This document shows positions 13,331 to 20,498 of a DNA stretch of 64,000 nucleotides, one piece after another (position 1 is the first letter of the stretch; the number at the start of each line of letters is the position of its first letter). Under the pieces are notes generated by a model that saw only the letters and a list, made by a program, of their open reading frames with translations, was not told where the DNA came from and did not search any database. The translations under genes and the position numbers were made by a program. Location: contig NZ_CP128399.1 in the NCBI RefSeq assembly GCF_030389965.1, positions 248,001-312,000 on the forward strand, written 5' to 3'. The stretch comes from Candidatus Chlorohelix allophototropha. Lineage in GTDB: Bacteria > Chloroflexota > Chloroflexia > Chloroheliales > Chloroheliaceae.

Positions 13331-14332
13331 TTATTTCTGGCTAGGGGCAAGATATTCTACTTCGCTATATGCCATCAGCTTATCAAGGCTATGCCGCGCT
13401 CGAATGTCTCGGACGGTGCCTGATTTGCTACGCATAACCAGCGAATGGGTTTCTATATGCCGTTCTGAATATTTAACACCATCCACCAACTCACCGTTAG
13501 TTATGCCGGTAATGGATACAAAGACTTGGTCTGAAGCTACCAAATCATCTATGGTATAGAGTTTATTCAGGTCTGCACCCATTGACAAAGCTTTGCGGCG
13601 ATCTTCCTCGTGGCGTGGATAAGGGCGGCACTGCATTTCGCCACCGATACATTTTAGAGCGCACGCAGTGACTACCGCTTCAGGCGAACCACCGATACCC
13701 ATCAATACATCTACGCCCGTATCTTCGAGCACTGTCATTAATGCACCGGCAATATCACCGTCAGTAATCAGTTTAATGCGTGCGCCGGCTTCGCGAATTT
13801 CCCGCATAAGTTGTTCGTGACGAGGACGATCAAGCACAACCACAGTCAACTCTTCCAAGGGGAGGCGTTTGGCTTCGGCAATACTTTTCAAATTCCATTC
13901 GACCGGTTTATCCAAATCAATTGCGCCTTTAGCGCTAGGACCTACGGCAATTTTATTCATATAGAATATTCCGGGGCTGGTATAAAGGCTACCTGCTTCG
14001 GCTAAAGCAACTACTGCTATTGCATTGGGTAAACCCAGCGAAAGTAAACGAGTACCGTCAATCGGGTCAACAGCAATATCTACCTTGGGGGGTTCGCCGT
14101 TGCCGATTTTCTCACCGATATAAAGCATAGGAGCTTCATCTTTTTCGCCTTCACCGATTACAACTGTACCGTCCATACTAATGCTGCCCAATGCTATGCG
14201 CATTGCTCTTACTGCTGCTCCATCGGCTTTGTTCTTATCGCCGCGTCCCATTAAACGTGCTGCTGCCATTGCGGCGGCTTCTGTTACACGTACTAGCTCA
14301 AGTGAAATATTCCTATCAATCTTCTCAGGCAT
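13331..14332 (-). CDS. glpX: Class II fructose-1,6-bisphosphatase (GlpX type)
   Basis: From ATG 14332 (AGGAGG 6-7 bases upstream; a longer frame to 14374 adds residues that do not belong) the protein has 333 residues. Signatures include ARLMGRGDKNKADGAAVRAMR, VVIGEGEKDEAPMLYIGE and VDIAVDPIDGTRLL (metal and phosphate binding), and VLMGIGGSPEAVVTACALKC. It hydrolyses fructose 1,6-bisphosphate to fructose 6-phosphate in gluconeogenesis. In many autotrophs the enzyme also cleaves sedoheptulose 1,7-bisphosphate in the Calvin cycle, which would suit a phototroph, but no other Calvin-cycle gene is present in the window. Confidence 0.95.
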   Translation of the reverse strand: MPEKIDRNISLELVRVTEAAAMAAARLMGRGDKNKADGAAVRAMRIALGSISMDGTVVIGEGEKDEAPMLYIGEKIGNGEPPKVDIAVDPIDGTRLLSLGLPNAIAVVALAEAGSLYTSPGIFYMNKIAVGPSAKGAIDLDKPVEWNLKSIAEAKRLPLEELTVVVLDRPRHEQLMREIREAGARIKLITDGDIAGALMTVLEDTGVDVLMGIGGSPEAVVTACALKCIGGEMQCRPYPRHEEDRRKALSMGADLNKLYTIDDLVASDQVFVSITGITNGELVDGVKYSERHIETHSLVMRSKSGTVRDIRARHSLDKLMAYSEVEYLAPSQK

Positions 14333-14541
14333 ACAGTTCCTCCTAACAATACTTTTACTCAAGTATTGTTGCACATAATTTTAGTCCACACATTGAATTT
14401 CTCTCGGTACATTCCCGCCGCTTCCTGTGTAACCTTTTAATGTTGGGTATTAGCCTCAATATAATCGGCTGAATATCCGTTGCTTGCGGCGGAGTTTCTT
14501 TATTGGCACAACACTTTTTGGCATTGAACAACACGCCTGAT

Positions 14542-16142: not shown

Positions 16143-16174
16143 AAAACAAAAACCCCCGCCTATACAAGGCGGGG
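16143..16174 (-). terminator. Terminator of the type I reaction-centre gene
   Basis: Read on the minus strand, CCCCGCC (16174-16168) and GGCGGGG (16160-16154) form a perfect 7-base stem with a 7-base loop, followed by TTTTTGTTTTAT. It lies about 50 bases past the stop codon, so the reaction-centre gene ends its own transcript. It may also stop the converging lipoprotein transcript. Confidence 0.8.
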
Positions 16175-16223: not shown

Positions 16224-18014
16224 TTACGGGGCAGGCAGTGGTACTAAAACTGGCACCCCGATATTCGGTCTCCAGGAATAACCTACTGCTAGGTAGGTAA
16301 AGATGCAGGTGAAAGTACCGCCATAGTAAAAGCATGTACCGAGGAAACGGCTACCCACTAGGGTAGTGACGAACTGCTCAGGCACTAGATTGATGTTAAA
16401 GTGCCGCTTGAGGAAGCGTGATAGTATGTATGCACCTTCCAGACGTGAGCCACGGTACATAAACCAGAACATAAAGCTTAGTAACCAGATCAAATGACCA
16501 TAATATAATATCATAGTTAGATGACCATCATTCCATATCTTACTAGTAGCTTGGAAGATATAGAACAAAGTACCTGGCCTACCGGGGAAACTCAGAGGCC
16601 CGGCGGGGTCTTTCGGGTCGATAGCATACTGGAAGCTGCCAAAGTACGCTCCCATCATGTACCAAACAATGACGCTCAAGGGTTTGATAGCCCACAACAT
16701 CGCCAACCAGATTTGATCCTGGATGGAGAAACCGCACGTACCACCGTAAGCGGGACCAAGGCAAGGATAGTCAAAACTACGTTTGGTTATGCCTTTTGCA
16801 TCAAATAGCGGGCTGCGCCTGGTGAAGAAGACCGCACGTGAGAGCGGTATCATCACGAAGAAGAAGCCAGATGTTAAGGCGTGTAAGAATACCCAGTCGC
16901 TTACACTGGTTTGATAACCGGGCCAGACATGTAATATACCGGGCCAAACAGTTTCAAGTATATAAGGGCGTAGCCAGTCGATATACCACTCTGGTGGGAA
17001 TATCTTGAAGTCCACCAGTGAGTTAATACCCATTACACCCCAAGCTGAGAAGCCAGTGAAGAAGGCGAAGAAGAAGCATATGACCGATATATCTACCTGC
17101 CTATCTTCTTTGTCAAACCACCTAATCCACTTGGATATAACCCAAGGATTCTTGGTGTCGTCGTCACGCACATCCCACAAATATTGAGCGCCGTGGAACA
17201 CACCACCGAAGATATAAAGCGCGCAACAGTTGACATGGTTCCAAACAAATAGGTTTAGAGTCACGTCGCTCCATTGCCCCAAAGCGGCACTTTCACCTCT
17301 AGGGAAGGTGAACCAAGCGAATGCGCTGTAAAGCATGCCCGTCCAGCCGAATATCACGAGGTTAACGTGCAATTGCGCTTTCGGGTCTTCCAAATGCCGA
17401 TTAAATGTTGGCGGTTTTCTATACGTAACTACACCAGCTATAAGTAAAGCACATGCCAGTAACAATAGGAAACCGTCAAAATTCATAAGCGGAATGATTT
17501 TAGCTTGCCTCTGTGCGGCATCGGTCAAGCCTATTCCAAAGAGAACAGGACCGCGCTGCATAACCAGCAGCGACCACAGGTTCCAAGCAAAGCACCACCA
17601 TGCAATGTAAATTAGGTGACCGCCCCATGCTTTTGCATAGGTTAGAGCCGCAGCTTGCAGGATGCGGTTGCGGTAATGCCACCAGCCAAACAAAATGAGA
17701 CCTAGCCCACTGATTATGTGAATCAGTGCATAGGTTAGCACCTTCTCTTTAGTATCGATGCCGAGGTTATATAGTTGCGGCTCGATGGAGAGAAAAAAGT
17801 AGTTTCCCGGCGCTGTAATACCACTCCCGATATTAAAAGCTACCATTACCCCGATCATACCTGAGACAATCAGGTGTCCACCGAATATTTGGTCTTCGGT
17901 ACGTGGGAAGGCGAACAACTGATACCAGTTATAGCCTCGCACATGGAGTTCGGCGGCCTTGTTTAAGGCGGGACGGTTGATTACTGGTGCAGCGGGACGT
18001 AGCTGAATACTCAT
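16224..18014 (-). CDS. pscA: Type I photosynthetic reaction-centre core protein (PscA/PshA-like)
   Basis: The 596-residue protein has 11 hydrophobic helices, as in all type I reaction-centre proteins: six antenna helices, then five electron-transfer helices. The loop after helix 8 carries D-YPCLGPAYGGTC (residues 415-427). Cys418 and Cys427 fit the ligand positions for the 4Fe-4S cluster F_X that is shared between two subunits; photosystem I has PCDGPGRGGTC at this site. His507 in YYGHLIWLLSFMFWF of helix 10 is the likely axial ligand of the special-pair chlorophyll, followed by the YRGSR loop. With one gene and one Cys pair per chain the centre would be a homodimer. The length is close to heliobacterial PshA (about 600) and well short of chlorobial PscA (about 730). 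AGGAG precedes the ATG by 9 bases. The gene symbol marks the family only; the sequence looks distant from all three known lineages. Confidence 0.95.
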   Translation of the reverse strand: MSIQLRPAAPVINRPALNKAAELHVRGYNWYQLFAFPRTEDQIFGGHLIVSGMIGVMVAFNIGSGITAPGNYFFLSIEPQLYNLGIDTKEKVLTYALIHIISGLGLILFGWWHYRNRILQAAALTYAKAWGGHLIYIAWWCFAWNLWSLLVMQRGPVLFGIGLTDAAQRQAKIIPLMNFDGFLLLLACALLIAGVVTYRKPPTFNRHLEDPKAQLHVNLVIFGWTGMLYSAFAWFTFPRGESAALGQWSDVTLNLFVWNHVNCCALYIFGGVFHGAQYLWDVRDDDTKNPWVISKWIRWFDKEDRQVDISVICFFFAFFTGFSAWGVMGINSLVDFKIFPPEWYIDWLRPYILETVWPGILHVWPGYQTSVSDWVFLHALTSGFFFVMIPLSRAVFFTRRSPLFDAKGITKRSFDYPCLGPAYGGTCGFSIQDQIWLAMLWAIKPLSVIVWYMMGAYFGSFQYAIDPKDPAGPLSFPGRPGTLFYIFQATSKIWNDGHLTMILYYGHLIWLLSFMFWFMYRGSRLEGAYILSRFLKRHFNINLVPEQFVTTLVGSRFLGTCFYYGGTFTCIFTYLAVGYSWRPNIGVPVLVPLPAP

Positions 18015-18323: not shown

Positions 18324-20498
18324 CTAACTTTGTAAGCTCAAATCACCAATTGCAAATGCCAAACGGCGTGTATCACTGAACGGCATTTGTAGCTCTTGTG
18401 GAAAGGCAGCGGGCAATAAACTGGTAAAACTCAACAAATTGCTTCCGGTTTTAAGGTTAAGTTTTAAGGTTTGTGGTTGAGGTGTTTGCGTTAAGTTCAA
18501 CTGCGGTTGGGTTAACCCATTTAAGGTTATTTCGAGATGGTTGCCTGCTGCCAAGCTCCATGCTTGTAAATCGAGTTGTACTTCCCCGGCTTTTGCTGTC
18601 ACAATCTGAATTTCCAACCGATTCTCCACCCAGCGATAGGCGCGTCCATCCGGCAATTTCTGAACTTCATAGCCACCACCGCTCGTTGCCAGCAACGCTG
18701 TCTGGCTATCAGTTGCAGACGGCACATGGAAAATTGCGGTACGCCCATCATCAAATACCGCAGCGCCGCTCAGCCCCTTTAAATATTCCTCAAGACCTTT
18801 TATATCTTCCTGACTGAATAAGCCTTCATCTCGGTATAAAACCACATACCGGATGTTGTAAAGCTGTAGCAATTTTAGTTGCGGCTGTGGGTTAGCTGCA
18901 AAAATAGCCTCCGACTTTTGTGGAGGGAAATTGAAAAACGCGCCGATTGGCTCTATTCCTTCGTAAAGCTGGATTACACGTCTGGAAACGTAACCTCCCG
19001 CAATAGGGTGTTGGTGGATGGTCTGGAAGAACATACGGCGACTGTCGCGGGTATAGTGGGAGGTGATAGGCAACTCCAACAGACCATAACTGCGGTCGGA
19101 ATCTTTGCCGATTTCTTGAAAATAGGTGGGGTAGTATAACGAGTCTTGTTTAAGCGGTAGCGCCAAAGTATCAGCTATGAATAAAGCCAATAACAGAGTG
19201 GCGGCTATTCCATACCTAGATTTAGGGAATCGTAGGAAATGCCATTTACTTATGATCCAGCCTGCCCCATAGCCTGCCATCAGGCTGATACCTAGCGTAG
19301 CCAGCGAAAGCAACCGTAACGGGCTACGTGCTAAATTCAAAAGAGGGATTTTTTCAAGCAATTGGTAGGGCATTGGGATGCCGCTACTCAATAGTGTGGC
19401 AGGATCATCGCTAAAGTTAAGACGCAAATATGGACCGAGACTAAGGCTCAATGTTACTAGTGTTATTCCGCACCACCACCACAGCCAACGCTTATTTTCA
19501 CTTCGCCACCACACCCACAAGCCTAATCCTGCCAATGCCAACGCTACAAAGCCCAGATAATAGGGATTGGTGCGGTAACCATCACTACGTTCGGGGTTAA
19601 ATAAGCCGAAGAGTGGGCTTGATTCGAGGATGGTTTCTTGCCTTGACAGGTCGTAATTGAAAACCAGAAAACCATCGCTGTTGCTACGAAAAGCTCCAAG
19701 CGCAATAGGGGCTGGCAATAGTAACCCGCCTGCTCCAATGCTTATAGCTCTAAGACTAAGTTCGCGCCAGTTGTACCCTTCTTTGCCCTTCCTGAAACTG
19801 CGCCAGATCATAAACAGGTATAAGGCTACACTATACATTCCCAGATAGGTAAAATAATACCAATCGCTGTAAAAAGTCAGCCATAGGCACAGGATTGCCA
19901 GCATTGGGTACAAATAAGTGTTTTTGGTGGAACTTTTCGACAGAGCTTTATGCAGAAATAGTAGGTAGAGCGGTATCCATTGTTGCCAGTGAACGTTGAT
20001 TTGTCCGCGTCCCACACTGTGCTGGTGGTATGCCCCAAAGTTGTAGAACGCGCCCACCAGAAAAGGAGCAATGTAAGAAGTGTAACCCATGAAATAACGC
20101 GCCAGCGCATACGCTGCCCAACCTGTAGCAACATATCCGGTTAAAATTATTAGGTTGAAAGCTGCCGCGTTGCCCAGAAAACTTGCTAATATGCCACCCG
20201 GAATACTCAGGGTAGGTTGCAGCGTATGGTAATAAAGCTGAAGAGGGTTTGCAGCATTTCGGTAAGGATAGAAAAGTACGTCGGTAACATAGGGGTTTTT
20301 GAACCGTTCAAAAAGGGAGGTGCGTACCCACCAAAAATTCCAGATATTCTGGTTGCTATCGGGGTAACTTGCCGGGATAGATTCGGTTAGGTGCAAAACC
20401 AGAGGATAGGTGTATAACAATGCCAATAGCAGGTAAGCCAGCGGTACTACCAGTTGAAGCCCTATACTGGATTTGGTACTGCCGACGGGCTTTTGCAC
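18324..20498 (-). CDS. Large multispanning membrane protein, glycosyltransferase-like
   Basis: The 724-residue protein starts at GTG (AAGGA 7 bases upstream). It has about 11-12 transmembrane helices in the first 450 residues and a soluble extracytoplasmic C-terminal part of about 270 residues. The first loop (SIPASYPDSNQNIWNFWWVRTSL) and the next loop around YHTLQPTLSIPGG resemble the large membrane proteins often annotated as GT-C or YfhO-like glycosyltransferases. The C-terminal region has a jelly-roll-like strand pattern. It lies upstream of the reaction-centre gene on the same strand, but with a 309-base gap. No specific function can be assigned. Confidence 0.6.
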   Translation of the reverse strand: MQKPVGSTKSSIGLQLVVPLAYLLLALLYTYPLVLHLTESIPASYPDSNQNIWNFWWVRTSLFERFKNPYVTDVLFYPYRNAANPLQLYYHTLQPTLSIPGGILASFLGNAAAFNLIILTGYVATGWAAYALARYFMGYTSYIAPFLVGAFYNFGAYHQHSVGRGQINVHWQQWIPLYLLFLHKALSKSSTKNTYLYPMLAILCLWLTFYSDWYYFTYLGMYSVALYLFMIWRSFRKGKEGYNWRELSLRAISIGAGGLLLPAPIALGAFRSNSDGFLVFNYDLSRQETILESSPLFGLFNPERSDGYRTNPYYLGFVALALAGLGLWVWWRSENKRWLWWWCGITLVTLSLSLGPYLRLNFSDDPATLLSSGIPMPYQLLEKIPLLNLARSPLRLLSLATLGISLMAGYGAGWIISKWHFLRFPKSRYGIAATLLLALFIADTLALPLKQDSLYYPTYFQEIGKDSDRSYGLLELPITSHYTRDSRRMFFQTIHQHPIAGGYVSRRVIQLYEGIEPIGAFFNFPPQKSEAIFAANPQPQLKLLQLYNIRYVVLYRDEGLFSQEDIKGLEEYLKGLSGAAVFDDGRTAIFHVPSATDSQTALLATSGGGYEVQKLPDGRAYRWVENRLEIQIVTAKAGEVQLDLQAWSLAAGNHLEITLNGLTQPQLNLTQTPQPQTLKLNLKTGSNLLSFTSLLPAAFPQELQMPFSDTRRLAFAIGDLSLQS

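Follow-up and report, generated by a model that had tools for sequence, protein, structure and literature searches.

The window analysed here is a 64,000-nucleotide stretch of chromosome 1 of 'Candidatus Chlorohelix allophototropha' L227-S17 (C1:248001-312000), and it carries on its minus strand an ATG-started open reading frame of 596 amino acids (positions 16224-18014) that encodes a type I photosynthetic reaction-centre core protein and is called pscA below. The genome examined consisted of five contigs (6,086,194 bp; C1 of 2,961,161 bp and C2 of 2,453,413 bp), and the published closed genome comprises two chromosomes (2.96 and 2.45 Mb), a chromid of 375 kb and two plasmids, one of 241 kb and one of 55 kb (Tsuji et al., 2024; PMC10972752). 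Just downstream of pscA and on the same strand (16154..16174) lies a terminator-like pattern, a hairpin of eight pairs (seven of them G-C) followed by a T run, which suggests that pscA is transcribed alone in L227-S17; five such patterns occurred in the region against 3.0 in shuffled sequences.

Two neighbours of pscA, both on the minus strand, may be mentioned. The gene at 18324-20498 encodes a membrane protein of 724 aa with no match in Pfam, and this protein's family has at least 10 copies in each of the five genomes of the family Chloroheliaceae considered here. When this neighbour was used to look for an empty pscA site in the related metagenome-assembled genome (MAG) L227-5C, the best match adjoined no other gene of the window. 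Two genes from pscA, at 13331-14374, lies a glpX-type fructose-1,6-bisphosphatase gene, which could serve the Calvin cycle.

In the Pfam search, the 596-aa protein scored above the gathering cut-off of PF00223 (PsaA_PsaB), and phmmer against PDB gave PscA of green sulfur bacteria (GSB) as the best match (6m32, E 6e-73), together with PscA of the Chloracidobacterium centre CabRC (7vzr, E 4e-53) and heliobacterial PshA (5v8k, E 7e-32); the PsaA chains of PSI matched more weakly than PscA and PshA. This homology covers the five-helix core domain, and a profile search likewise placed the protein inside the type I family. A type I gene coding for 11 helices had been proposed at this position by the first-pass annotation, and both points were borne out: a hydropathy scan revealed exactly 11 non-overlapping peaks of at least 1.0. 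An AlphaFold2 model from a shallow alignment also had 11 long helices, but it was too poor (mean pLDDT 46.5) to count as independent evidence on the fold. Relatives were found with an alignment that included fragments from the PDB matches; a single-sequence scan of genome contigs found none. The nearest homologue, 78% identical over the full length, is encoded in L227-5C (JACAUC010000003.1), another member of the Chloroheliaceae.

It is nearly certain that this gene encodes the type I core protein of 'Ca. Chlorohelix allophototropha' L227-S17, the organism that the first-pass annotation had named as a possible source and from which the DNA indeed comes. The gene is already known: a pscA-like gene on chromosome 1 of L227-S17, the single type I reaction-centre (RCI) gene of that genome, with an F_X motif, 11 helices and ~30% identity of its product to other RCI proteins, was published by Tsuji et al. 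(2024; PMC10972752). We found no difference between the published gene and that of the window, and the two were taken as the same. The gene marked a milestone on publication, as it revealed that the phylum of the type II green non-sulfur bacteria also contains a type I centre, and it bears on the distribution history of both kinds of reaction centre.

Considering that the best solved-structure match was a GSB protein and that Chlorobium MAGs of the same lake series (L227-2013) were among the matches, we also weighed whether the contig could be a fragment of a green sulfur bacterium (Chlorobiota) or a binning error, in which case the gene would be the ordinary PscA of a co-occurring Chlorobium. 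This is extremely improbable. Over the full protein, identity was only ~31% to GSB sequences but 78% to L227-5C, the motifs PCLGPAYGGTC and WYMMG (see below) differ from those of GSB, and the protein fell outside GSB in the tree. In addition, the gene lies within a 2.96-Mb replicon. A binning error was rejected on the identity levels and the large replicon.

The remaining gene content agreed with a phototroph that relies on this centre. PF00223 had a single match in the whole 6.09-Mb genome, and a five-row type I profile, with E values up to 1, also gave one match and thus no second core gene genome-wide; a second, diverged core subunit would have spoken against the earlier proposal of a homodimer, which is implied by one core gene in the genome. 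Genome-wide searches recovered single copies of fmoA (C2:1.377 Mb) and csmA (C1:0.362 Mb), a gene for BchI (C1:1.100 Mb) and a full-length gene for the RuBisCO large subunit (C1:2.384 Mb), and no pufLM (PF00124) was detected in L227-S17 or in four other members of the family. Other phototrophic Chloroflexota carry type II reaction centres encoded by pufLM. The presence of fmoA, csmA and rbcL, the lack of pufLM, and phototrophic growth of L227-S17 with chlorosomes and BChl a/c have been reported previously (Tsuji et al., 2024; PMC10972752). Among the 150 nearest relatives, the type I gene was present in L227-5C alone, and a sample of 400 Chloroflexota genomes contained no other type I centre. 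Three family genomes (G001, G003 and G004) had no RCI gene, fmoA, csmA or true bchI, nor either of the two cytochromes described below; phototrophy is therefore patchy within a single family.

With regard to csmA, the gene has a conserved gene for an ArsA/Get3-like ATPase on one side and two large genes, also conserved, on the other (L016:5406-11360, which corresponds to about 360-366 kb of C1 in L227-S17, and L017:6336-13190). In L227-S17 the products of the latter two have 576 and 802 aa and no Pfam match, and it is possible that they are new chlorosome-related proteins.

To characterize the cofactor-binding residues, we aligned the window protein with that of L227-5C, 13 GSB sequences and one Chloracidobacterium-like sequence. 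The motif of the F_X [4Fe-4S] cluster, PCLGPAYGGTC, is intact at residues 417-427 (16734..16766, minus strand, as for the codons below), as had been noticed earlier, and its cysteines Cys418 and Cys427 align with C527 and C536 of GSB; two predicted ligands per subunit would give four in a dimer. The histidine that had been singled out in helix 10 as suited to the special pair, His507 of YYGHLIW (codon 16494..16496), aligned with GSB His621; in CabRC, H784 coordinates the Zn-BChl a' of the P840 special pair (PMC9751088). Lys444 (16683..16685) aligned with GSB Lys553, the axial ligand of the accessory chlorophyll (PMC8452559). The F_X cysteines, His507 and Lys444 were kept throughout this alignment.

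The Ca2+ site presented a different picture. Solved centres use Asp563 (GSB), Asp732 (CabRC) and Asp468 (HbRC) as Ca2+ ligands (PMC9751088), and at this position L227-S17 has Met454 (16653..16655); likewise, GSB Asn695 is replaced by Val577, and both changes are shared with L227-5C. Among 80 loci retrieved, the motif of this site was WYIDG in 78, WYLDG in one and WYMMG in one, that of L227-5C; the window protein itself also carries WYMMG. At the position of the conserved Tyr599, L227-5C has Phe and L227-S17 retains Tyr (Tyr485), and the P-helix tryptophan position is also altered in L227-S17. From these residues, the donor-side Ca2+ site, a shared trait of all three solved homodimers, is predicted to be absent in L227-S17. 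The loss is not a new observation, because it had been predicted for the Chlorohelix centre by Gisriel et al. (2021; PMC8452559).

The altered Ca2+-site and P-helix residues, and the location of pscA away from other photosynthesis genes, are what one might expect if the protein were a chlorophyll-binding antenna or a decayed type I relative incapable of charge separation. However, L227-S17 and L227-5C, whose PscA proteins are identical at 78% of positions, both retain the F_X cysteines, special-pair histidine and accessory lysine, and L227-S17 grows phototrophically (PMC10972752) with no other reaction centre in its genome. We therefore give this possibility almost no weight and regard the protein as the core of a functional centre.

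Gene order differed between the two phototrophs. On contig JACAUC010000003.1 of L227-5C (cluster at L014:7543-18093), bchD, bchI and a bchO-like hydrolase gene lie on one strand and are followed by a divergent set of cytochrome c, pscA and fmoA genes, with rpoB and rpoC farther along; pscA starts ~30 bases after the cytochrome c gene, whose product has 225 aa. The BchI and BchD matches exceeded their cut-offs, and the BchO match was below (85.7 vs 172.6 bits). The sister genome thus holds a small photosynthesis cluster. In L227-S17, fmoA on chromosome 2 is flanked by the same hydrolase gene and by a gene for a 185-aa homologue of the cytochrome (C2:1,376,164-1,376,718), which precedes fmoA, and bchI and a likely bchD (a 694-aa frame) are located away from both fmoA and pscA. 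The L227-5C cluster is hence dispersed over two chromosomes in L227-S17, in which no large photosynthesis cluster was reported (Tsuji et al., 2024; PMC10972752). We did not find the cytochrome-pscA-fmoA cluster described in Tsuji et al. (2024), its supplement aside, or in Gisriel et al. (2021), and this cluster is one possible contribution beyond the published gene.

The other concerns the electron donor. Gisriel et al. (2021; PMC8452559) reported no PscC-like gene in the Chlorohelix genome and called the reduction route of the centre unclear; a named donor candidate may help with this question. With a single hydrophobic anchor at its N-terminus and a single CxxCH, the fmoA-linked cytochrome is a membrane-anchored monoheme protein, and it matched class I cytochrome c families weakly. 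In PDB it gave weak cytochrome c matches, and PscC, PscX and PscY were not among them. Its two versions are 44% identical over the BLAST alignment, vs 78% for PscA and 80% for FMO. Of the five family genomes, only those of the two phototrophs encode it, and the three non-phototrophic members lack it. As it is adjacent to pscA and/or fmoA and limited to the two phototrophs, we consider it the likeliest electron donor to the special pair (P+), with about an even chance of being correct; the basis is gene order plus co-occurrence. Gene order says little about which protein donates electrons, and the greater divergence of the cytochrome, compared with PscA and FMO, also speaks against the assignment. 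This role was not found in Gisriel et al. (2021) or Tsuji et al. (2024), although Supplementary Note 2 of the latter, on electron transfer, may mention it.

Other donors deserve attention. A second membrane-anchored monoheme cytochrome c is encoded beside a hemL-like aminotransferase gene (C2:1251958-1252494; L111:8955-9494, minus strand); it shares the N-terminal anchor of the fmoA-linked protein (54% identity over 39 residues) and has the same two-genome distribution, with a 40% homologue in L227-5C and none in the three non-phototrophic members. The donor could be a cytochrome from another locus, diffusible or linked to b6f, such as this hemL-linked protein, and the cytochrome beside pscA and fmoA would then have another role. 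Two similar lipoprotein-like proteins with two CxxCH haem motifs each, encoded close together at about 1.111 Mb of C1 (L116:14773-15783 and L116:16603-17541), may extend the list of candidates. On the other hand, only the first cytochrome adjoins pscA and fmoA in L227-5C, or fmoA in L227-S17, and the two organisms belong to different genera. We regard a donor encoded elsewhere as somewhat improbable, yet plausible. A fuller form of the proposal is that the centre is fed by a lineage-specific anchored cytochrome, perhaps relayed via the second one, and works with neither a Ca2+ site nor a P-helix tryptophan, a mode of re-reducing P+ unseen in other homodimers; the chance that all of this is right falls slightly short of even.

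We infer the dimer, its pigment and cofactor ligands and the electron route from homology. Two copies of PscA would pair into a homodimeric type I (iron-sulfur) centre, in which the special pair (with one His507 from each copy), the accessory chlorophylls (Lys444) and A0 would sit within the last five helices, and the F_X cluster would be bound by the four cysteines (418 and 427 of each copy). Antenna bacteriochlorophyll probably binds to the first six helices. Light energy would pass from the chlorosomes (CsmA) via the FMO protein to the centre, and electrons from F_X to ferredoxin, possibly via a PscB-like protein. P+ may then be re-reduced by the membrane-anchored monoheme cytochrome whose gene is next to pscA and fmoA in L227-5C and next to fmoA in L227-S17.

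We also reconstructed a maximum-likelihood tree of the core domain. The two Chloroflexota sequences formed a branch of their own (96/92), separate from the heliobacterial sequence as well as from GSB and Chloracidobacterium together; the deeper joins are unsure because the branches are long. The separate branch agrees with the 'distinct fifth clade' of Tsuji et al. (2024; PMC10972752). The earlier remark that the protein has a heliobacterial rather than a chlorobial length was right as to size (596 vs 600 aa in 5v8k), but this does not mean heliobacterial affinity, because the aligned core was 39% identical to GSB and 41% to Chloracidobacterium, against 32% to heliobacteria.

Compared with the solved centres, the L227-S17 protein resembles GSB PscA (6m32) in its F_X motif, special-pair histidine, accessory lysine, 11-helix plan and FMO and CsmA partners. 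It differs from the GSB protein in that the latter has 731 aa, an N-terminal extension, longer loops, PCLGPVYGGTC or PCIGPVYGGTC as its F_X motif, and WYIDG with Asp563 and Asn695 at the Ca2+ site, where L227-S17 has Met and Val. Chloracidobacterium PscA (7vzr), also part of an FMO-using homodimer and closest in the core domain, is larger (865 aa, with a large insertion), has the Ca2+ site and is served by the known donors PscX and PscY. With heliobacterial PshA (5v8k), the protein shares an identical F_X stretch and a P-helix position without tryptophan in addition to its length, whereas heliobacteria have the Ca2+ site and neither FMO nor chlorosomes. The PscA-like protein of L227-5C has the same ligand residues, including Met in place of the Ca2+-binding Asp, but its gene is clustered with bchD, bchI, the bchO-like gene, cytochrome c and fmoA, whereas pscA of L227-S17 stands alone on chromosome 1.
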